A stretch of DNA of 32,845 bases from NCBI GenBank assembly GCA_028819575.1, contig JAPPLB010000137.1:1-32845 (forward strand). The letters run 5' to 3'. The notes below the pieces were generated by a model. The model was not told the DNA's origin and made no database searches. It worked only from the letters and a program-made list of their open reading frames with translations. This stretch comes from Bryobacterales bacterium. GTDB lineage: Bacteria; Acidobacteriota; Terriglobia; Bryobacterales; UBA6623. This document shows, in pieces, positions 5,282-32,845 of this stretch; the first letter of the stretch is position 1, and each line of letters begins with the position of its first letter. A program made the translations under genes and the position numbers.

Positions 5282-5476
5282 CTGACCTGTGTTTCTCACC
5301 ACGTGGCGAGGCGAAGTGCGTGAGAGGGCCGTCAGGACGAGGCGCGGGCCGGGCGGAGGAAAAAGGCGCACGCAGCATGGCCTTTAAGGTTTTTCACGAA
5401 TCACGAGGCACGAAACACGAATCACGGCCTTTTTATCGCGTGCTTCGACCGTCGGGTAGTGAGAAATGCAGGTCAG
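5282..5476 (+). repeat. Repeat family 1, copy C (full, with five 7-bp units)
   Basis: A 195-bp copy with termini CTGACCTG and CAGGTCAG, perfectly complementary over their outer 8 bases but different from copy A. The inner terminal repeats match with three mismatches. The interior contains a tandem of a 7-bp unit (CACGAAT, CACGAGG, CACGAAA, CACGAAT, CACGGCC) at 5395-5429. It lies between the divergently arranged gluconolactonase-like and DHH genes, directly upstream of the former. Confidence 0.85.
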
Positions 5477-7623: not shown

Positions 7624-8880
7624 TCAGACCTCGATCCGTTCGATTCTTCGAATCAGCGCGAATAGCGCCGCGAGTCCCAAAGTAGGCATCAGTCCGGCGG
7701 CCAGGAATACCGGCAAGTAGGAAAAGCGGTCTACCACGTACCCGGTGGCGAGCATGAGGATCATGTTCATGATTCCTTCGCCGAGGCCGGTCAGTCCCGC
7801 CAGGCGGGCCAGTACTCGAGCAGCGAACAGGTCGCCGAGAGTTGCGATATGCGTCGGGACGCTGATGGCGATGCCGAAGGTCGCGAGGCAGATCAGGGCC
7901 ATGGCCGTGACGGCGCTGGGCGCGATGGGAACCGCCATGCTGCACGCGCAGAGGGCGGCGCTTGTCAGGAAGGCCGCCTTGCGGGCACGGTCGGTCGGCC
8001 AGCCTTTGGCGATCAAGTGGCCGGAGAACCAGCCGCCGGCCAGGTTGCCGAGGCCTGCGAAGAGAAAGGGAATTCCGGCGGTCCAGCCGATCTCCTCCAT
8101 GCTGAAGCCCCGCTCACGGCGCAGGTATTCGGGCAGCCAATACCAGTAGAAGTGGACGACGGGGCCGCCCAGCGCCCGAATCAGGATCGCGCCCCAGACG
8201 TGCCGGATTCGCAGCAGGGGCAGCAACGAGGTCCGCTGTTGCGCCTCGGCTGGGGCTGGCTGGCTGGTACGGTCGCGGTAGAAGGCGAGCCAGGGGATTA
8301 TCCACAACAGGCCCAGGGCGCTCGGGATGATGAATGTCATCCGCCAGCCGAAGTGCGATCCGAGCGGGACGATCAACAGGGGAGCGAGAAAAGCCCCGGC
8401 CACCGTACCGCTGTTGAAAATGCCGCCCGCCAGGGCTCGCTCTTTGATCGGGAACCACTGTGAGATGACTTTGATGCCTCCCGAGTAATTTCCGCACTCA
8501 CCCGCTCCCAGGAAGAAGCGAAAGATCCTCAGGTGCCACATGTTTCGCGCAATGGCGTGGAGGCCGTTGGCCACCGACCAGACGAACATGATGAGCGGAA
8601 GGCCGAATCGGGCCCCCTTGCGGTCGATCATCCAGCCTGCCGGGTATTGAAACAGTGTCAGCCCAAGCAGGAAGGCGAAGAGGATCTGGGAGTAGTCCGC
8701 GTTCGTCAGGCCCAACTCGTCGCGAATCACGGGCGCCATTACGGAAAGAACCTGCCGGTCGATCAGGTTGATCATGATCGAGAGGAAAAGCAGGAAGAGG
8801 ATGCTCCAGCGCTTGGGCGAGAGCTGGTCGTCGACGGTTGAGGGTCCCCCCGGCTCGTTCGTCGGGGACGGTGCGGTCAT
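7624..8880 (-). CDS. MFS transporter, ExuT-like (anion:cation symporter group)
   Basis: A 418-residue major facilitator with twelve predicted membrane helices. Sequence signs of the hexuronate/galactonate/phthalate-type ACS group are YINLIDR-like MINLIDRQVLSVMAP in helix 1, YPAGWMIDRKGARFGLP (the MFS loop 2-3 motif), RFFLGAGECGNYSGGIKVISQWFP (helix 4) and ERALAGGIFNSG. These carriers import sugar acids or other organic acids with protons. It is divergent from the NagB-like cluster, with repeat family 2 in the shared 206-bp gap, so it is the likely importer for that cluster. Confidence 0.85.
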   Translation of the reverse strand: MTAPSPTNEPGGPSTVDDQLSPKRWSILFLLFLSIMINLIDRQVLSVMAPVIRDELGLTNADYSQILFAFLLGLTLFQYPAGWMIDRKGARFGLPLIMFVWSVANGLHAIARNMWHLRIFRFFLGAGECGNYSGGIKVISQWFPIKERALAGGIFNSGTVAGAFLAPLLIVPLGSHFGWRMTFIIPSALGLLWIIPWLAFYRDRTSQPAPAEAQQRTSLLPLLRIRHVWGAILIRALGGPVVHFYWYWLPEYLRRERGFSMEEIGWTAGIPFLFAGLGNLAGGWFSGHLIAKGWPTDRARKAAFLTSAALCACSMAVPIAPSAVTAMALICLATFGIAISVPTHIATLGDLFAARVLARLAGLTGLGEGIMNMILMLATGYVVDRFSYLPVFLAAGLMPTLGLAALFALIRRIERIEV

Positions 8881-8943
8881 GAGGAGATAGCTGACAGCTT
8901 AGCCGAAACCGGCGGCGGCGCGTCTGCTTCGGATTCGCCTCCC

Positions 8944-9026
8944 CTGACCTGAAACATCCTCCTGATCAAGCGGCGTTGACAACGGTTCGGATGTTTCTCG
9001 CTTGAACGATCCTCACACGAGCGGCG
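8944..9026 (+). repeat. Repeat family 2, copy 1 (interleaved inverted repeats)
   Basis: It shares the first 29 bases with the copy at 23153, then differs, then matches again. Two pairings are conserved: GAAACATCC (8951-8959) with GGATGTTTC (8989-8997), and TCAAGCG (8966-8972) with CGCTTGA (8999-9005). The arms are interleaved, as in an H-type pseudoknot, and the loop between them is not conserved. It ends with a shared ACACGAGCGG tail. It lies between the divergent MFS and NagB-like genes. Confidence 0.75.
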
Positions 9027-9086
9027 AAAACCAAAAGCTAAAAACTGATGAGAAAGGCGGTTCGGCTACGATAGACGTTCCGAGCC

Positions 9087-9941
9087 ATGAGTGGGCAGCA
9101 GGAGTTGATGCGGGTTTCGGTGGAAGAGTTGCGCGCCCGGGCGCGGACGCCTTTCCGGCTATTGCCGGACACGAAGACTCTGCTCCACCACTTCGCGCGC
9201 TCGATCGCGGACGGGATTCAATCCCGGAACGAGCGCGGCGAGCCGAGCCGATTGATTCTTCCGGTGGGGCCGACGAAGCACTACCCGCTGCTCGCTGAGA
9301 TCACGAATCGCGAGCGGATTAGTTGGCGCGGCGTCCATGTATTCCAGATGGACGAGTTTCTGGACTGGCAGGGTCGGCTCGTCCCGGAGAGCCATCCGCT
9401 GAGCTTTGTGGGTTTCATGCGCCGCGAGTTGTTCGGCCGGATCGATCCCGCTATGCGGATGCCGGAGCGGCAATACTGTTTTCCGCATCCGTTCCGGCCG
9501 GATGAGATTTCCGAACGCATCGCAAAAGTCGGCGGGATCGACTGCTGTTACGGCGGGATCGGCTACCACGGCCACGTGGCCTTCAACGAGCCTCCGGTCT
9601 CCCGCTGGGGCTGCATCAGCGTGGATGCGCTCAGGAATTCGCTCACGCGTGTCGTGCCGCTGGCGCCGGATTCGATCATCGTGCAGAGCATTCACTGTTC
9701 CGGTGGAGATTCCTCGGCGATTCCACCGCTGGCGGTGACGCTGGGGATGAAGGATATTCTGAGATCCCGCCGGATTCGGCTCTACTTGGCAGCCGGCGAA
9801 CGCCACCGCGCCGTCTTCCGGACCGCGGTGGCGGGTGACGTGATGACGGACTATCCGGCGACGCTGGTGCAAGGCCACCCTGACGCGGAGATCCTGACGG
9901 ACGAGGCGACCGCCCGGCCGATCGAGTTGGGACTGGCATGA
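9087..9941 (+). CDS. NagB-like glucosamine-6-phosphate isomerase/deaminase homologue with altered active site
   Basis: A 284-residue member of the NagB/6-phosphogluconolactonase fold. LPVGPTKHYPLL matches the phosphate-binding loop, QMDEF carries the general base (D89), and GIGYHGHVAFNEPP matches the GxGxDGHIAFNEP motif. In that motif the conserved Asp (D141 of E. coli NagB) is replaced by H161, while H163 and E168 remain. The A-V-T-L-G-M motif is also present. It probably acts on an amino-sugar phosphate or a related sugar phosphate, but the substitution makes the exact reaction uncertain. An alternative ATG at 9108 has AGGAG just before it and may be the true start. It heads the sugar cluster. 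Confidence 0.75.
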   Translation: MSGQQELMRVSVEELRARARTPFRLLPDTKTLLHHFARSIADGIQSRNERGEPSRLILPVGPTKHYPLLAEITNRERISWRGVHVFQMDEFLDWQGRLVPESHPLSFVGFMRRELFGRIDPAMRMPERQYCFPHPFRPDEISERIAKVGGIDCCYGGIGYHGHVAFNEPPVSRWGCISVDALRNSLTRVVPLAPDSIIVQSIHCSGGDSSAIPPLAVTLGMKDILRSRRIRLYLAAGERHRAVFRTAVAGDVMTDYPATLVQGHPDAEILTDEATARPIELGLA

Positions 9942-15939: not shown

Positions 15940-16036
15940 GCCGGACCGATCGCGGGCGGTCAAAGAGCCTGCCTCCCCACGCCATCCATCGACTCGACGT
16001 TGAAGATCAGCGTCGCGTTGACCGATGCTGTTGACG

Positions 16037-16256
16037 AGCCTGCCTTTTCACCACGCGGCAAGGCGAAGTGCGTGAGAGGGCCGTCAGGACGAGGCGCGAG
16101 CCGCTTGACGCACGCAGGTGTAGCGGCCGTATCGCCTCCTTCGGCCCTCGGGTTGCGAGACACGCAACACGGCCTTTAGGTTTTTCACGAGTCACGAAAC
16201 ACGAATCACGGCCTTTTTTCGCGTGCTTCGGCCGTCGGGTGGTGAGAAATGCAGGT
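16037..16256 (+). repeat. Repeat family 1, copy D (full, with four 7-bp units)
   Basis: A copy of about 220 bp starting AGCCTGCCTTTTCACCAC and ending GTGGTGAGAAATGCAGG. The outer bases are less well paired than in copies A, B and C. The interior has the same module as copies C and G, with four 7-bp units (CACGAGT, CACGAAA, CACGAAT, CACGGCC) at 16186-16213. The right end abuts a SUKH-like gene fragment, so insertion or recombination here probably removed that gene's N-terminal part. A weak match to the left core (AGCCTGCCTCCCCACGC) at 15967 may be a still older remnant. Confidence 0.8.
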
Positions 16257-16381
16257 TGAACCCCGTGATCTTGGTTGGCGCTCCTGAGCCGAGAGGGGTA
16301 GCTCAGTCGTTCAGTGACTTTGTCGATCTTTACCTCAATGATTCTCCTGACCGGTACGTGAAGGCAGACCAGGAATTCTAG
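16256..16381 (+). pseudogene. C-terminal remnant of a SUKH (SMI1/KNR4)-like protein
   Basis: Reading from the right edge of repeat copy D, an open frame encodes about 38 residues, including VAQSFSDFVDLYLNDSPDRY, and ends at TAG (16379-16381). This resembles the end of SMI1/KNR4-type proteins, which often serve as immunity proteins against contact-dependent toxins. No start, ribosome site or N-terminal part is left. The assignment rests on a short pattern only. Confidence 0.45.
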
Positions 16382-16435
16382 CTGTAGAACCATGGAAGCC
16401 GCGTTGCCGCTGCCGGCTGATCTGCCGGATCCGGT

Positions 16436-16690
16436 TCACTGACCGCTCAATCCGCTGGCGATTTCGCTGTAGTCCGCCCTTGCCCTCTCCGGGTGAATTT
16501 CATAGATGATGTATTCGCTGTTGTGCTCTCGTGCCAGGTCCTTGTAGAAGCCCCTCGACTTCTTCACTTGATGACGGCAAGGACAGCATTCAGCTCATTC
16601 CGTTCGGCAAGCCGGCATTCCGTTCGTACTTGCCGGGCACCTCATCTCCAGCAAAAACGACTTTGAGATCTACGTGGTAGCCTGACTTGG
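16436..16690 (-). pseudogene. Frameshifted remnant of an unknown protein
   Basis: On the minus strand, coding-like text runs through different frames: GYHVDLKVVFAGDEVPGKYERN, then NELNAVLAVIK in a second frame, then KKSRGFYKDLAREH and SEYIIYEIHPERARADYS in a third, ending at TGA (16438-16436). The charged and hydrophobic pattern looks like real protein, and the frames join with small shifts, as in a decaying gene. I do not recognise the family. The 5' part is overlapped by the UspA gene that starts at 16696. Confidence 0.35.
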
Positions 16691-16695
16691 TCAGC

Positions 16696-17598
16696 ATGCC
16701 GAGCAGCCAATCGGAAACAAACCTGATCGGGCACGTTCTGGCGCCCGTTGATTTCTCGAAACGATGCGCCGCCACTGCTCCCTATGCGATTTCGCTGGCC
16801 GACCGCTTCAAGGCCAGACTCACCTTCGCCCACGTCATTCCTGGGCTCCCCTATCAGGGGACCGAGAAAGAGGCATTCTACGGTCCAAGAGGCGAGATCG
16901 TCTCGGGACGTGAACTAGACCGGTATTACCGCAGTCGCCTGGACGATTTTGTGCAGGAAGCCACCGGCAATGCGGATGTGGGCAGGATTCTGCTCAAGGG
17001 AGATGTCTCGCAGCGGATCGAGGAATACGCTCGCAATAGCGGCGTTGATCTAGTGGTGATTCCTACTCATGGATACGGGCCCTTCCGCCACATGCTGCTC
17101 GGATCGGTGGCCTCACGCATCTTGCACGACCTAACATGTGCGATCTTCAGCGGCGTCCATACCGCCGAGCCGCCCGAGATTCCGCCCCGTTTCAAGAGAG
17201 TGGCGTGCGCGTTGGACCTGGGGCCTCACAGCGAGAGGGTGCTGCGTTGGGCCTGTGAGTTTGTCAGGGTCTGGGAGGCAAGTCTCCTGTTGATTCACGT
17301 CACACCCCGACTCGAGTTCGAGGTCTATCAACCGCATTTCGTCAAGGACGACTGGCACGATAAGATGGCCGGCGCAGGGCGAGAGGCTGTCGAGCAACTG
17401 ATGGAGCGCGTCGGCTGCGAAGCGCATGTGAATGTGCAGGCAGGGCATCCAGTGCATTCCGTTGTGGCTGCGGCCGCAGACGAGCGCGCGGATGTGCTGA
17501 TCATCGGCCGAGGCCGGGCTTCAGAAATTCCGAGCAGGTTGACGACGCACGCTTACGGGATCATTCGAGAGGCCCGGTGTCCGGTAATCAGCGTTTGA
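16696..17598 (+). CDS. Tandem universal stress protein (two UspA domains)
   Basis: About 300 residues containing two UspA folds in a row. Domain 1 begins IGHVLAPVDFSKRCAATAPYA and has the nucleotide-binding loop IPTHGYGPFRHMLLGSVAS near residues 123-140, matching the GxxG-9x-G(S/T) pattern of ATP-binding USPs. Domain 2 begins FKRVACALDLGPHSERVLRWA and ends VLIIGRGRASEIPS, where the loop is degenerate. The protein is probably cytoplasmic and linked to stress or redox survival. A TTG nine bases upstream is an alternative start. It precedes a second tandem USP gene by about 110 bases. Confidence 0.82.
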   Translation: MPSSQSETNLIGHVLAPVDFSKRCAATAPYAISLADRFKARLTFAHVIPGLPYQGTEKEAFYGPRGEIVSGRELDRYYRSRLDDFVQEATGNADVGRILLKGDVSQRIEEYARNSGVDLVVIPTHGYGPFRHMLLGSVASRILHDLTCAIFSGVHTAEPPEIPPRFKRVACALDLGPHSERVLRWACEFVRVWEASLLLIHVTPRLEFEVYQPHFVKDDWHDKMAGAGREAVEQLMERVGCEAHVNVQAGHPVHSVVAAAADERADVLIIGRGRASEIPSRLTTHAYGIIREARCPVISV

Positions 17599-17706
17599 AC
17601 CCGCATCTCCGGCTTGGTCTCAAGTTAGATCTAGCAGCAGGAAGCAAGTGGCATGCCGGTGGGTCCGTCTACTGCCGGACGCCCCGAGACGAAAGAGGGA
17701 AAAACG

Positions 17707-18660
17707 ATGACAAGGTTCAAGAAGGTTCTCGTCTACGTCAACACCGACAATGAGAAGCACGCGGCCCTCGATCGCGCGGTCCGTCTGACGGAAACGACGG
17801 GCGCCCGGCTCACGGCCGTGGACGTCGTGCCGGACTTGCCTGAACTCTTTCCCGAACTCGATTCGCCGCCCTGGGTGGTGCCGAGTGAGATCGCCACGTA
17901 CAAGCGTGACGAATTGTTGAGGCTGGTAGCCCCGTTCCGCCGCCGGGGAGTAGAGGCGGAGGTCGACATTCTTTACGGCAATCCTGCTGTCGAGTTGATC
18001 CGGGAGGTCCAGAGAAACGGGCACGACCTGCTGTTGAAAACAGCCGAAAGGGGCGGACTGACGAAGCTGTTCGGCACCACGGCGATGCGGTTGCTGAGGA
18101 AATGCCCGTGCCCGGTCATGCTCGTCAAGCCCGGCCGAGCGAAACGATTTGCGCGTATTCTCGCCGCGGTGGACATTGCCCCGCACGACCGGGAAAATGC
18201 GGCGGTCAGCAAGAAGGTGCTCGATTTGGCTCTGTCCGTGGCCAAGTTCGAAGGAAGCGAGCTTCACGTACTTCACGCCTGGAGAGTGCTCGGCAAAGCC
18301 GCGCTCAGGCGGGCTGAAGTTCCAGACGGCGAACTGCGAGAATACACAGAGTCCATGCGAAGGATTGTCCAGGCGTCCTTCGATGAGTTTCTGGCCGGGT
18401 TCGATCTGCCCCAGAAGCGTGGCCGCGTTCACCTGCTGGAAGGCGATGCCGGGGTCGTGATCCCTGACTTCGTGAAGAAGAGACGAGTCGCCCTGTTGGT
18501 GATGGGGAGCGTGGCGCGTACAGGAATCTCGGGCCTGTTGATCGGCAACACCGCCGAGCGAGTGGTGGGGAATATCGGCTGCTCGCTGCTAGCCGTCAAG
18601 CCGGACGACTTTGTTTCACCGATCCAGCTCGAGGAGAATGGCACAGTCCACGTTGACTGA
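17707..18660 (+). CDS. UspE-like tandem universal stress protein
   Basis: A 317-residue two-domain USP. Domain 1 starts FKKVLVYVNTDNEKHAALDRA. Domain 2 ends with VALLVMGSVARTGISGLLIG and NTAERVVGNIGCSLLAVKPD, close to the UspE signature. UspE-type proteins act in stress tolerance and cell aggregation in enteric bacteria. GAGGGA lies about 7 bases before the ATG at 17707; the open frame extends to 17653, but the extension is not family-like. Together with the gene at 16696 this forms a USP pair, probably a small stress operon. Confidence 0.85.
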   Translation: MTRFKKVLVYVNTDNEKHAALDRAVRLTETTGARLTAVDVVPDLPELFPELDSPPWVVPSEIATYKRDELLRLVAPFRRRGVEAEVDILYGNPAVELIREVQRNGHDLLLKTAERGGLTKLFGTTAMRLLRKCPCPVMLVKPGRAKRFARILAAVDIAPHDRENAAVSKKVLDLALSVAKFEGSELHVLHAWRVLGKAALRRAEVPDGELREYTESMRRIVQASFDEFLAGFDLPQKRGRVHLLEGDAGVVIPDFVKKRRVALLVMGSVARTGISGLLIGNTAERVVGNIGCSLLAVKPDDFVSPIQLEENGTVHVD

Positions 18661-18810
18661 CCGGTATGGCGCTAGGCCTGCGCAGTGATTCCACAATCTG
18701 CGGCGAGAAGAGGTCTGTAATCTGGTGCGCGGGAGTTCCGTAATCCAACCCTGAGCGAGGGGGGAACATCGACCCATGTCGCTTGGCCGACGCCATGCCG
18801 ATCGTCGACG

Positions 18811-18869
18811 CTGGCCTGCATGTCTCACCACGCACTTCGCCTCGCCGCGTGGTGAGAAATGCAGGCTAG
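18811..18869 (-). repeat. Repeat family 1, copy E (59-bp snap-back hairpin form)
   Basis: Two 23-base arms match as inverted repeats with two differences, around a 13-base loop. The loop and right arm equal the first 39 bases of a full copy in reverse orientation, so the whole interior has been lost. The outermost bases are CTGG and CTAG, giving a G-T wobble in place of one base pair. The 150 bp between the UspE-like gene and this copy hold nothing I recognise. Confidence 0.8.
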
Positions 18870-18928
18870 TGGCAATCGGCGAAGGTGAAGCTTCTCATCG
18901 ACCAGAATCTTCTTTCCCACGAGGTGGC

Positions 18929-19264
18929 ATGGTTGGGGCAGTTCCCGGCCCCGCCGCCGATCCCATGAGCGAAGACGAACGCCTCGAGATGCTCCGCACA
19001 GCGACCGAGGCCCACGCGGACCTCAAGGAGCTCACCCTCAGGTTGCGCCGCCGGCTGACCTCGAAAGCCCCGGCGACCAAGGCCGCCTTCAAGGCCGAGC
19101 AGGAGTTGTTTCGGCTCCGCCGCGAGGCGAGCTGCAGCGACTCCCGATCGAGGGTCCGGAACCGTCGCGACGGCGCGAGGAGTTGGGTGAGGTGCGACGC
19201 GGAGGCAAGGGCGTCGATATCGAGCGCCTGCGGCGCGGGAAGGATCGCGGCGGCGAGCGCTGAA
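18929..19264 (+). pseudogene. Frameshifted small charged helical protein
   Basis: The frame from ATG 18929 (or 18965) encodes MSEDERLEMLRTATEAHADL and a highly charged helix ending ELFRLRR near 19125. The coding pattern then continues in another frame as ELQRLPIEGPEPSRRREELG and VRRGGKGVDIERLRRGKDRG to a TGA at 19262-19264. GAGGTG precedes the ATG at 18929. It is either a recent one-base frameshift or two unrelated short frames. I do not recognise the family. It converges on the broken higA. Confidence 0.4.
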
Positions 19265-19383
19265 AAGTCCCCTCGAAACCACTACCGAGACCCGAACACC
19301 CAGGTCCTTTATTGGTCCAGCTCCTCGCTGAAAACGCCTCTACGGGCTTCTCCGAGGGAGTTTTTTCTCCGAGGGCAGGGGTT

Positions 19384-19653
19384 TTACAGTAGAGCACCAG
19401 CTTGTCGAGTCTCTGTGACGATCGCCTCGGCACGTTTGCGCGCTCTCATTCTCGCGTTCGCCAAATCGTAACTGGCCTGGTACCGCATCCAGAAATCGGC
19501 GTTCGACCAGCCGAGATTCTCAAAGCGCATGGCCATATCGGCCGAGATTCCGCCCCGGCCGTTGAGAACCCGGTCCAGGGTTGTGCGGGCCACGCCCAAC
19601 TTTTCGGTGGCGGTGGTCACCGTCAACCCTTCGGCCCTCCGGTTGCGAGACAC
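19384..19653 (-). pseudogene. higA: HigA-family antitoxin with N-terminus replaced by repeat copy F
   Basis: The helix-turn-helix core and C-terminus of a HigA/XRE antitoxin remain: LTVTTATEKLGVARTTLDRV, LNGRGGISADMAMRFENLGW, then NADFWMRYQASYDLANARMR. HigA proteins usually start about 20 residues earlier with a HPGEVL-type motif; that part is missing and the frame runs into repeat copy F. A GTG at 19653 or a TTG at 19626 inside the repeat, the latter with GGAGG nine bases ahead, could still start translation. No HigB toxin gene is present on either side, so this is an orphan and probably a remnant. Confidence 0.7.
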
Positions 19654-19711
19654 GCAATACGGCCTTTTTTCGCGTGCTTCGACCGTCGAGTGGTGAGAAA
19701 TGCTGGTTGAC
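19622..19711 (+). repeat. Repeat family 1, copy F (90 bp, left-deleted)
   Basis: The right two-fifths of a full copy, ending GTGGTGAGAAATGC, without the left core and without the 7-bp units. It is bounded by a perfect 7-bp inverted repeat, GTCAACC (19622-19628) and GGTTGAC (19705-19711). The left GTCAACC is also the codon sequence of the LTV part of HigA, so one outer arm appears to equal host sequence and the other its inverted copy. Confidence 0.75.
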
Positions 19712-19778
19712 TCCACCCGAGCTGCGGCCGTTTCTCTTGTTCGGGAATAATACAATGTGGGAAGAATCTTCCCGCGAG

Positions 19779-19989
19779 CAAGCCTGCCTTTCTCACCACG
19801 TGGCGAGGCGGAGTGGGTGAGAGGCCCTCAGGACGAGGCGTGTCGCGCGCAGGTGTAGCGGCCGTATCGCTTCCTTCGGCCCTCGGGTTACGAGACACGC
19901 AACACGTCCTTTAAAGTTTTTTACGAATTACGAATCACGGCCTTTTTACCGCGTGCTCCGGCCGTCATGTGGTGAGAAATGCAGGCTAG
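19779..19989 (+). repeat. Repeat family 1, copy G (full, with three 7-bp units)
   Basis: A 211-bp copy with ends CAAGCCTGC and GCAGGCTAG and terminal repeats matching with two differences. The interior module is that of copies C and D, with three 7-bp units (TACGAAT, TACGAAT, CACGGCC) at 19922-19942. It is 67 bp from copy F. Its right end, GTGGTGAGAAATGCAGG, contains the ATG (19979) that opens the following esterase gene. Confidence 0.85.
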
Positions 19990-22100: not shown

Positions 22101-23156
22101 ATGCACCGAATAGGCTTATCCGCGGTTGTGATACTGCTGGTCGCGTTAGCCGCCGGCCTCACTGCTTCCGAGCGCTATGTCGCTGTGGACAACGTCTGCG
22201 CCTGGCCGAACCTGACGGTCTTGCCGAATGGGGACTTGACGGCCGCGATCTTCAACCACCCAAGTCACGGGCTCGCCGAGGGCGACGTGGAGGTATGGGC
22301 GAGTTCGGATGGAGGCAAGCTCTGGGAGCTTCGCGGAGCCGCCACCACGCACGACCCGGGAACGAACCGCATGAACGTCGCGGCCGGCCTGGCTCACAAC
22401 GGGGATCTGGTCGTGCTCGCATCGGGCTGGGGCGGGGCTGGTTTCCGCAGGAAGATCCTGCCGGTGATGGTGAATCGTTCTTCCGACGGCGGCCGGACCT
22501 GGCAGCGCTCGTTCGGCGTCGAGCTCCCCGGCGGGCTTTCTTACCTCATTCCCTTCGGTGACATCGTCCTGATGGAGAGCGGCATGTTGGCGGCCCCCTT
22601 CTATCAGGAGGACCGCGACGTGTCGTCCGGCAAGCGACCGCAGGTAAGCAAGGGCAGCGCCTACCTCCTTTTCAGCAAGGACGACGGGCGGACCTGGGGA
22701 GACGGCGTTGTCCTCGCACGCGGCGATTACAACGAGACGTCCGTCCTGAGGATTCGCCCCGATCGCTGGTTGGCGGCGGTGCGGACCTATCGAGACGGGC
22801 ACCTCGAGCTTTTTGAATCGAGCAATGAAGGGAAGACCTGGAAGAATGCCGGGCCCCTCACGCTGCCCAGCCATCATCCGGCCCACCTGCTTCAACTCGA
22901 TGACGGCCGCATCCTGCTGACCTACGGCATCCGCGAGAAAGGGCACCAGGGCGTGGGGATGCGCATCAGCGAGGACGAAGGGAAGACCTGGAAAGCTCCG
23001 ACGCGAGTCGTCAACCTTGAAGGCACCACCGACGGCGGCTATCCGTCCACGGTCCAGCTTCCGGACGGCAGCCTTCTTACGGCGTACTACAGCAACGGCA
23101 TTCCCCAACACCGCCGCTACCACATGGGAGTGGTCCGCTGGACGTTGTCTGACTGA
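22101..23156 (+). CDS. Exported sialidase/BNR-repeat family protein
   Basis: A 351-residue secreted beta-propeller of the sialidase superfamily. Asp-box type repeats are visible as SSDGGKLWE, SSDGGRTWQ, SKDDGRTWGDG, SSNEGKTWKNAG and SEDEGKTWKAP. The N-terminus has a signal peptide (LSAVVILLVALAAGLTAS). Many such proteins cleave or bind sialic acid or related glycans; the full set of sialidase arginines was not confirmed, so the substrate is open. It probably shares a transcript with the esterase. The stop codon TGA (23154-23156) is formed by the first bases of repeat family 2 copy 2. Confidence 0.82.
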   Translation: MHRIGLSAVVILLVALAAGLTASERYVAVDNVCAWPNLTVLPNGDLTAAIFNHPSHGLAEGDVEVWASSDGGKLWELRGAATTHDPGTNRMNVAAGLAHNGDLVVLASGWGGAGFRRKILPVMVNRSSDGGRTWQRSFGVELPGGLSYLIPFGDIVLMESGMLAAPFYQEDRDVSSGKRPQVSKGSAYLLFSKDDGRTWGDGVVLARGDYNETSVLRIRPDRWLAAVRTYRDGHLELFESSNEGKTWKNAGPLTLPSHHPAHLLQLDDGRILLTYGIREKGHQGVGMRISEDEGKTWKAPTRVVNLEGTTDGGYPSTVQLPDGSLLTAYYSNGIPQHRRYHMGVVRWTLSD

Positions 23157-23238
23157 CCTGAAACATCCTCCTGATCAAGCGAGAGCGGACACCCATCCGG
23201 ATGTTTCCGGCTTGAATGATCCGCACACGAGCGGAGGA
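23153..23238 (+). repeat. Repeat family 2, copy 2 (interleaved inverted repeats)
   Basis: The same two pairings as copy 1: GAAACATCC (23160-23168) with GGATGTTTC (23199-23207), and TCAAGC (23175-23180) with GCTTGA (23210-23215). The intervening loop differs from copy 1, while the stems and the ACACGAGCGG tail are kept. It occupies the gap between the convergent BNR and aldo/keto reductase genes and may act there as a bidirectional end signal. Confidence 0.75.
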
Positions 23239-23246
23239 AAAGCTGG

Positions 23247-24212
23247 CTAGCTGCCTTGATACTCGTGTCGGCGCCGGCCTTCGAGCGCCGTGCGCGCATC
23301 GCGCTTCCAGTCTTCCAGGTCGGGGCCGGCAAGCTCGGCGGCTCTCTCGCGCAACTCGGCCATCTCATCCCTGTTGTACTGCGAGAACTGCTGCGCGATG
23401 CGGACATCGTCTTCGATCTGACCGATCGTCGTGCATCCGACCGCGAGACAATGGATCGGAAGGCTCAGCACGTAGTTGATGCATTGCCCGACTCCGAATG
23501 ACTGGAGCAGCTTCGAGTTGGCCGTGCTCTTCATGCCCTGGATGCCCAGGTTCTGCTTTTGGGCTTCCGGCAGCACCTTCTGTTCGAAGCTCAGATACGA
23601 CGGATCGGCTGGATTGAGCGGCATCAGGATCGTGTCGAAGTCTTTGTAAAGCCGCAGCATCTCGAGATGGGCTTCCGGATCGTGATGCCCGGTAAAGCCG
23701 ATGTAACGGCATTTCCCCGCTTTCTTTGCCGCCTCGAAAGCCTCGATCGCACCGCCGGGAGCGAAGATGGCTTTGAGGTCCTCATCGGACTTGACGGAGT
23801 GAATCTGCCACAGATCGAGGTAGTCGGTCTTGAGTCGCTTCAGCGACTTGTGCAGTTCTTCCTCGGCTTCCTTGCGGGTTCGCTTTACGCTTTTCGTGGT
23901 CAGGAAGACCTCCTTGCGGACATCCTCGAGCGCTTCGCCGTAGACCACCTCGGAGCGGCCGTTCCAGTAGCTGTGCGCATTGTCGAAGTAGTTGAGCCCG
24001 AGTTCATAGGAGCGGCGCGTGATGGCCTTGGCCTGATCGAACGTGCAAAGCGGAAAACGCCCACCGGCTTGTCCGACGAGCGTGAGTTTCTCGCCGGTCT
24101 TGCCGAACGTCCTTTTCGGCACGTCACCGGCTTTCAGGCGGCTCGCCCGGGCACTGCCCGCCGCGATGCTCAACCCCGCAACAGCACTGCCGAAGAAGCT
24201 GCGTCGTTTCAT
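23247..24212 (-). CDS. Tat-exported aldo/keto reductase
   Basis: A 321-residue aldo/keto reductase, an NAD(P)H-dependent oxidoreductase of carbonyls and sugars. The catalytic tetrad is visible: Asp and Tyr in YFDNAHSYW, Lys in LTTKSV and His in WQIHSV. An N-terminal MKRRSFFGSAVAGLSIAAGS twin-arginine signal points to export. GGGAGGAAACC directly before the ATG is a strong ribosome site, and TATGAT upstream may be a -10 box. It converges on the BNR gene. It is distinct from the second exported AKR at 30503; the two share only family features. Confidence 0.88.
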   Translation of the reverse strand: MKRRSFFGSAVAGLSIAAGSARASRLKAGDVPKRTFGKTGEKLTLVGQAGGRFPLCTFDQAKAITRRSYELGLNYFDNAHSYWNGRSEVVYGEALEDVRKEVFLTTKSVKRTRKEAEEELHKSLKRLKTDYLDLWQIHSVKSDEDLKAIFAPGGAIEAFEAAKKAGKCRYIGFTGHHDPEAHLEMLRLYKDFDTILMPLNPADPSYLSFEQKVLPEAQKQNLGIQGMKSTANSKLLQSFGVGQCINYVLSLPIHCLAVGCTTIGQIEDDVRIAQQFSQYNRDEMAELRERAAELAGPDLEDWKRDARTALEGRRRHEYQGS

Positions 24213-32739: not shown

Positions 32740-32845
32740 CTAGCCTGCATTGCTCACCACGCGGCGAGTCGAAGTGCGTGAGAGGGCCGTCAGGACGAGA
32801 CGCGAGCCGCTTGGCGCGCGCAGGCGTACTTGAACAGTACGTTGA
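32740..32845 (+). repeat. Repeat family 1, copy H (left half; runs off the window)
   Basis: It starts CTAGCCTGCATTGCTCACCAC-like at 32740 and follows copy A closely to the window end, including the GTACTTGAACAGTAC hairpin at 32826-32840. The right end is not visible. It is directly upstream of thpR. Confidence 0.85.

Follow-up and report, generated by a model that had tools for sequence, protein, structure and literature searches.

Non-autonomous elements derived from IS200/IS605 transposons have a one-sided target and a fixed orientation, and they carry subterminal hairpins and an end that resembles the target. REP/REPIN repeats, paired with the single-strand Y1 (HUH) transposase RAYT, measure 20-40 bp, are built on a GTAG-tagged palindrome and occur as inverted pairs; cleavage by TnpA-REP enzymes falls at C|T, adjacent to the REP (PMC8266576). 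Prokaryotic MITEs (Coxiella QMITE, Correia, ERIC, RUP) are non-autonomous and intergenic and can affect the 3' ends or stops of genes, as when a QMITE2 insertion extends enhC (PMC5896051).

Here we describe a repeat, family 2, found twice in the window, by which we mean the whole 32,845-nucleotide stretch of a Bryobacterales contig (JAPPLB010000137.1) that was analyzed. Family 2 matches the IS200/IS605-derived elements in its one-sided short target, fixed orientation, subterminal hairpins and target-like end (CAGGTCAG versus GGCTAG on the reverse strand), but differs in that the enzyme is missing. It shares with REP/REPIN sequences the short, intergenic, high-copy, hairpin-forming and lineage-specific character and the CT at its junctions, whereas its unit is 89 bp long, no GTAG-tagged palindrome was noticed in it, its multiple copies form head-to-tail tandems, and no Y1 gene was found in either genome that carries it. 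Like the prokaryotic MITEs, it is non-autonomous, intergenic and able to affect gene ends, although its main 89-bp form has neither a pair of terminal inverted repeats nor a target duplication longer than CT. Family 1, an IS1380-family MITE of the same genomes, has a YTRR target and a 5'-CCTG start in common with family 2 and often lies adjacent to it or at the same site, but is longer, has terminal inverted repeats and has a likely autonomous partner. Taken together, family 2 is a new lineage-specific family of an ordinary kind of mobile repeat, and we consider it probable that it is a non-autonomous, REP/MITE-like mobile DNA element that inserts 5' of CTNRCC with CT junctions, rebuilds stop codons and encodes no conserved RNA. 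This reading rests on the high copy number, the confinement to two sister species, sites found both empty and filled, the structure of the junctions, the regenerated stops and the tandem copies. The features in the window are as follows.

8944..9030, + strand: family-2 repeat, copy 1, by the family model; in a divergent gap; the site in the sister genome is occupied, by a copy about 80% identical
8951..8959, + strand: copy 1 stem 1, 5' arm GAAACATCC
8966..8972, + strand: copy 1 stem 2, 5' arm TCAAGCG
8989..8997, + strand: copy 1 stem 1, 3' arm GGATGTTTC
8999..9005, + strand: copy 1 stem 2, 3' arm CGCTTGA
23153..23241, + strand: family-2 repeat, copy 2, by the family model; in a convergent gap; the sister genome has an empty site
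23153..23156, + strand: copy 2 left end CTGA, whose TGA is the stop of ORF 22101-23156
23160..23168, + strand: copy 2 stem 1, 5' arm GAAACATCC
23175..23180, + strand: copy 2 stem 2, 5' arm TCAAGC
23199..23207, + strand: copy 2 stem 1, 3' arm GGATGTTTC
23210..23215, + strand: copy 2 stem 2, 3' arm GCTTGA
23243..23246, + strand: right-hand junction motif CTGG of copy 2, taken as the pre-existing target side

A preliminary description of the window had reported both copies as carrying two interleaved stems in the order arm1-arm2-arm1'-arm2', one copy in a divergent and the other in a convergent gap. The arms, their order and the gene contexts all hold: copy 1 is flanked by divergent genes (7624-8880, - strand; 9087-9941, + strand) and copy 2 by convergent ones (22101-23156, + strand; 23247-24212, - strand). 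Stem 2 has 7-base arms in copy 1 and only 6 bp in copy 2, and according to the family model the repeat unit is longer than the originally delimited 8944-9026 and 23153-23238. The two copies constitute a repeat far beyond chance (two matches in none of 100 shuffles). When a single copy is shuffled with its dinucleotides preserved, interleaved perfect stems of 9+6 bp turn up just 2-3 times in 2,000. The complementarity therefore goes back to how the element arose, which is a different matter from its maintenance.

An initial search of the window's genome (G000) returned 43 matches. We then built a family model, based on sequence only, from 64 diverse copies and scored 150 candidates per genome, which makes the resulting counts lower bounds: at least 131 copies in G000 and at least 148 in its sister species (G002), the two genomes being about 95% identical. 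The same model found no copy in the third genome of the genus (G001) or in 15 further genomes of the family and order, and a consensus search of 60 relatives recovered family 2 in this genus only. Matches to a 17-base pattern outside the JAPOOG01 genome were at about the level expected by chance for 257 Gb of contigs (around 30 by our own estimate), and viral contigs gave two single matches to the pattern. The 89-bp unit has the consensus CTGACCTGAAACATCCTCCTGATCAAGCGGCGTTGACACCGGTCCGGATGTTTCCCGCTTGAATGATCCGCACACGGGCGGAGGAAAAA. Among the 121 distinct copies examined, 11 lie inside called ORFs and the rest outside, with genes called by our own GC-frame script rather than a trained gene finder.

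Comparison of the two carriers revealed how the element sits in its target. Window copy 2 corresponds to the empty site GTTGACTGACTAGCAGGCAGGCTAACTG in the sister genome, with flanks 95-96% identical, and joining the flanks of other G000 copies recovered further empty sites there (L003, L007, L013, L027, L041); at L028 and L006, a family-1 element occupies the site instead. In every clean case, a CTGA-, CTAG- or TTAG-like motif that is already present in the empty site directly follows the 3' end of the unit CTGACCTG...GGAGGAAAAA. Family 2 keeps a single orientation and abuts a CTNRCC motif on its 3' side: left flanks carry at most 0.18 bits, while right junctions read CTNRCC. On the left, 77 of 108 copies have the 4-mer CTGA; on the right, the 4-mer takes several forms (CTAG, CTGA, CCAG, CTGG, CTCG, CTAA). 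These differing distributions speak against a plain 4-bp target duplication, as does the mismatch between left and right in most copies, young ones included. CT is found at both junctions, CTGA on the left and CTNN on the right are not the same, and no target duplication longer than CT was seen. All this is most simply explained by a junction at CT whose left side comes from the element and whose right side comes from the target. The L028 pair is anomalous in that its right junction reads CGAG, unlike the site in the other genome. Terminal inverted repeats are absent from the 89-bp form, since inverting CCTGAAAC does not give its right end, GGAGGAAAAA.

The left end of the element frequently supplies the stop codon of the neighboring gene. 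The upstream gene points at the element in 79 copies, and in 40 of these its stop lies within the element's CTGA. Relative to the approximately 110 copies outside ORFs, these 40 exceed the expectation of 16% (p = 3e-7), which was derived from the other non-coding CTGA/CTAG sites in the sequence examined (75 of 459 are stops). The position of the stop is the same with and without the element in all four filled/empty pairs, namely TGA in both states three times and, for window copy 2, TGA when filled and TAG when empty (CTAG in the sister genome, same codon); one of the four is L028, where the sister site holds a family-1 element rather than being empty. Selection against coding insertion, combined with the target motif, can produce such an enrichment, and we claim no active targeting of stop codons. 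Family 2 provides a clean case of mobile DNA that is able to sit on stop codons while leaving the protein unchanged.

In the mechanism that we propose, the 89-bp unit would insert in a fixed orientation directly 5' of CTNRCC, bringing its own CTGA on the left and leaving the target's CTNN on the right. Where the target CTAG or CTGA represents the C-plus-stop of a gene, the left end of the element would rebuild an in-frame TGA, so that the length of the protein is kept. We infer that CT is cleaved, most likely on single strands, by a trans-acting enzyme, and that the inverted arms might act as recognition hairpins, a putative role, or be relics of terminal repeats. HUH single-strand transposition fits best, owing to the one-sided target, fixed polarity, CT junctions and target-like end of the element; that the enzyme is indeed of the HUH type, as in IS200/IS605 or RAYT, we rate at somewhat below an even chance.

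The mobilizing enzyme was not found in the draft assemblies of the two carriers. A search for Y1_Tnp (PF01797) gave no match in either of these incomplete assemblies, with the control matching in five named genomes, and a RAYT/Y1 transposase was set aside as the driver for this reason. The third genome of the genus shows the reverse, with nine Y1_Tnp matches and no family 2. As both carriers are draft assemblies, the missing gene carries little weight. The search for Y2_Tnp (Y2/IS91) was uninformative because its control matched nowhere. No autonomous family-2 element, sought as inverted left ends 1-3 kb apart, was detected, the sole such pair being two full copies. The filled and empty pairs in the two sister species would permit a direct search for the enzyme.

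Of the alternatives, we weighed two that invoke other enzymes. Under the first, a DDE transposase, either that of IS1380 or a relative of it, would mobilize family 2 as a classical MITE, with the left CCTG following YTRR and a right end that has degenerated. Elements of the IS1380 family are present in the genome (L254, L256; the L256 transposase scores 385 bits against NF033539), with terminal inverted repeats CCTGCATTTCTCACCA, a CTAG/YTAR target (CTAG on both sides in L256) and ends like those of family 1, itself a MITE of about 176 bp that is flanked by YTAR and ends in 17-bp terminal inverted repeats (CCTGCATTTCTCACCAC). This IS is likely the autonomous partner of family 1. The YTRR target and CCTG start recur in family 2, and its target is sometimes the very one used by family 1 (L006, L028). 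However, the right end GGAGGAAAAA has no terminal inverted repeat, the differing left and right 4-mers of most copies, young ones included, argue against the 4-bp duplication, and the termini do not match those of the IS, with which CCTG alone is in common. We rejected IS1380 as the driver of family 2 while accepting it as the explanation for family 1, and movement of family 2 by a DDE enzyme appears unlikely.

The second alternative is cassette-like site-specific recombination by a tyrosine or IS110-type recombinase with a CT core, in which a putative circle with the junction AAAAA-CTGACC would cross over at CT. It would account for CT at both junctions, with an element-derived left and a target-derived right side, for the head-to-tail tandems, and for the frequent swapping of the copy at a common site. 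Against it stand the very short, one-sided target and the state of IS110: each genome has a single IS110 gene, with ends unrelated to family 2 and no family-2 sequence nearby, and in the sister species it is interrupted by a stop. IS110 was rejected as the driver for being single-copy with unrelated ends, no autonomous IS110 copy with family-2 ends was found, and we regard this recombination as doubtful. Improbable, too, is an undescribed kind of element, cassette-like and stop-regenerating, whose putative enzyme would recognize a single strand in folded form (with the arms perhaps making a DNA pseudoknot), insert at CT before CTNRCC, and repeatedly exchange the copy.

The preliminary description had proposed that the interleaved arms form a conserved structured RNA, a pseudoknot, or a DNA-hairpin element. 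In the 64 diverse copies we observed no covariation: 87.1% of cells are paired in the interleaved structure versus 87.2% with shuffled partners, and five pairs show changes on both sides against 4.7 expected (5-9 in slid controls). RNAalifold, applied to the 64-copy alignment, predicted no consensus structure and not a single pair. The minimum-energy fold differs from the interleaved structure, being a nested three-way junction closed by TCCTCC/GGAGGA and containing TCAAGCGG/CCGCTTGA, and it lacks covariation as well (six both-side changes versus 8.9 expected). In an earlier set of 106 copies, stem 1 had 64 broken cells and one compensatory cell. There are individual exceptions, such as L230 with GAAACAACC/GGTTGTTGC. 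In stem 2, as many as half of a pair's cells are broken. Subfamilies whose second arm carries TCTCG or GCTCG lack it wholly or partly, yet still spread; copies that retain the sequence without the pairing, or only stem 1, are common, the outcome that the preliminary description had named as its refutation. Conservation is no higher in stem 2 than in the remainder (0.869 versus 0.856), and the unpaired stretch ATGATCCGC is conserved like stem 1 (0.942 versus 0.944). Fold z-scores were -2.2 and -1.9 for the two strands as single-stranded DNA; the RNA folds scored only -1.8 and -0.6. The window has no Rfam match at gathering scores and copy 1 no terminator or promoter match; the latter led us to reject a sigma-70 promoter reading of its loop TTGACA.

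These pair counts already largely refute the structured-RNA reading, although the power of the covariation test is limited, as the family is young and strongly conserved. It is very improbable that selection acts on a pseudoknot RNA dispersed as a small RNA or regulatory 3'-UTR: the arms are hard to explain by chance in one sequence and many copies follow stop codons and would sit in 3'-UTRs, but no sign of maintained pairing was found, RNA folding is weak, no Rfam, terminator or promoter match supports it, insertion contexts are varied and copies are polymorphic between the sister species. The DNA-hairpin wording fared better, being close to a mobile DNA repeat able to fold as single-stranded DNA. 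Most copies are probably decaying, so the missing compensation leaves room for hairpins to play a part in a source copy that is still active. The case shows that a pair of conserved copies with complementary arms may represent a repeat family instead of an RNA, a question settled by collecting copies.

Copies of family 2 also appear to turn over at shared loci. Head-to-tail tandems occur on C17, C124 and C125, and tandem number differs between genomes at L004/L049 and L035/L068, with two copies versus one. Of 19 shared loci, at least 8 carry copies closer to paralogues elsewhere than to the orthologue in the other genome; at window copy 1 (8884-9065 versus C38 of the sister genome) the flanks are 96% identical and the element only about 80%. 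Any of three processes could cause this pattern: alternate loss from tandems, conversion, or a new insertion into the same position. Terminal inverted repeats are confined to rare short palindromic variants (L067:1378; L229:639, - strand; L106:4712, - strand), two of which end in GGATGTTCCAGGTCAG or GGGTGTTTCACATCAG, as in CTGACCTGAAACATCC...GGATGTTCCAGGTCAG, so that stem 1 runs into the inverted left terminus. These variants are possibly ancestral or derived terminal-repeat forms.

Family 1 itself occurs in the window at 49-249, 5286-5472, 18815-18865 and 19783-19985, and also at 16038-16259 and 32744-32845. In place of a segment of about 3.9 kb lying between family-1 repeats (approximately 15983-19858), the syntenic position on C38 of the sister genome has about 64 bp, and part of the segment matches C39 of that genome at 87%; recombination between repeats is a possible origin of the replacement. 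In the sister species (L223:637-2266, on C13), the IS110-family element with the stop-interrupted gene sits within a family-1 repeat, in the central palindrome CGTACTTGAACAGTACG, a situation comparable to that of IS1111 in Coxiella QMITE2 (PMC5896051). Mosaic repeats at L244:540-774, L245:571-790 and L246:208-442 consist of a family-2 left end, GGTCCCCTTGGGAGCGCGCGGG..., a second family-2 copy and then family 1. Lastly, a 24-bp module, GGGCGGAGGAAAAAGGCGCRAGCC, has the family-2 right end in common; it is found inside family 1 in about 20 contexts, the window included, as tandem units, and in L029 as the reverse complement, after the family-2 copy of that locus.
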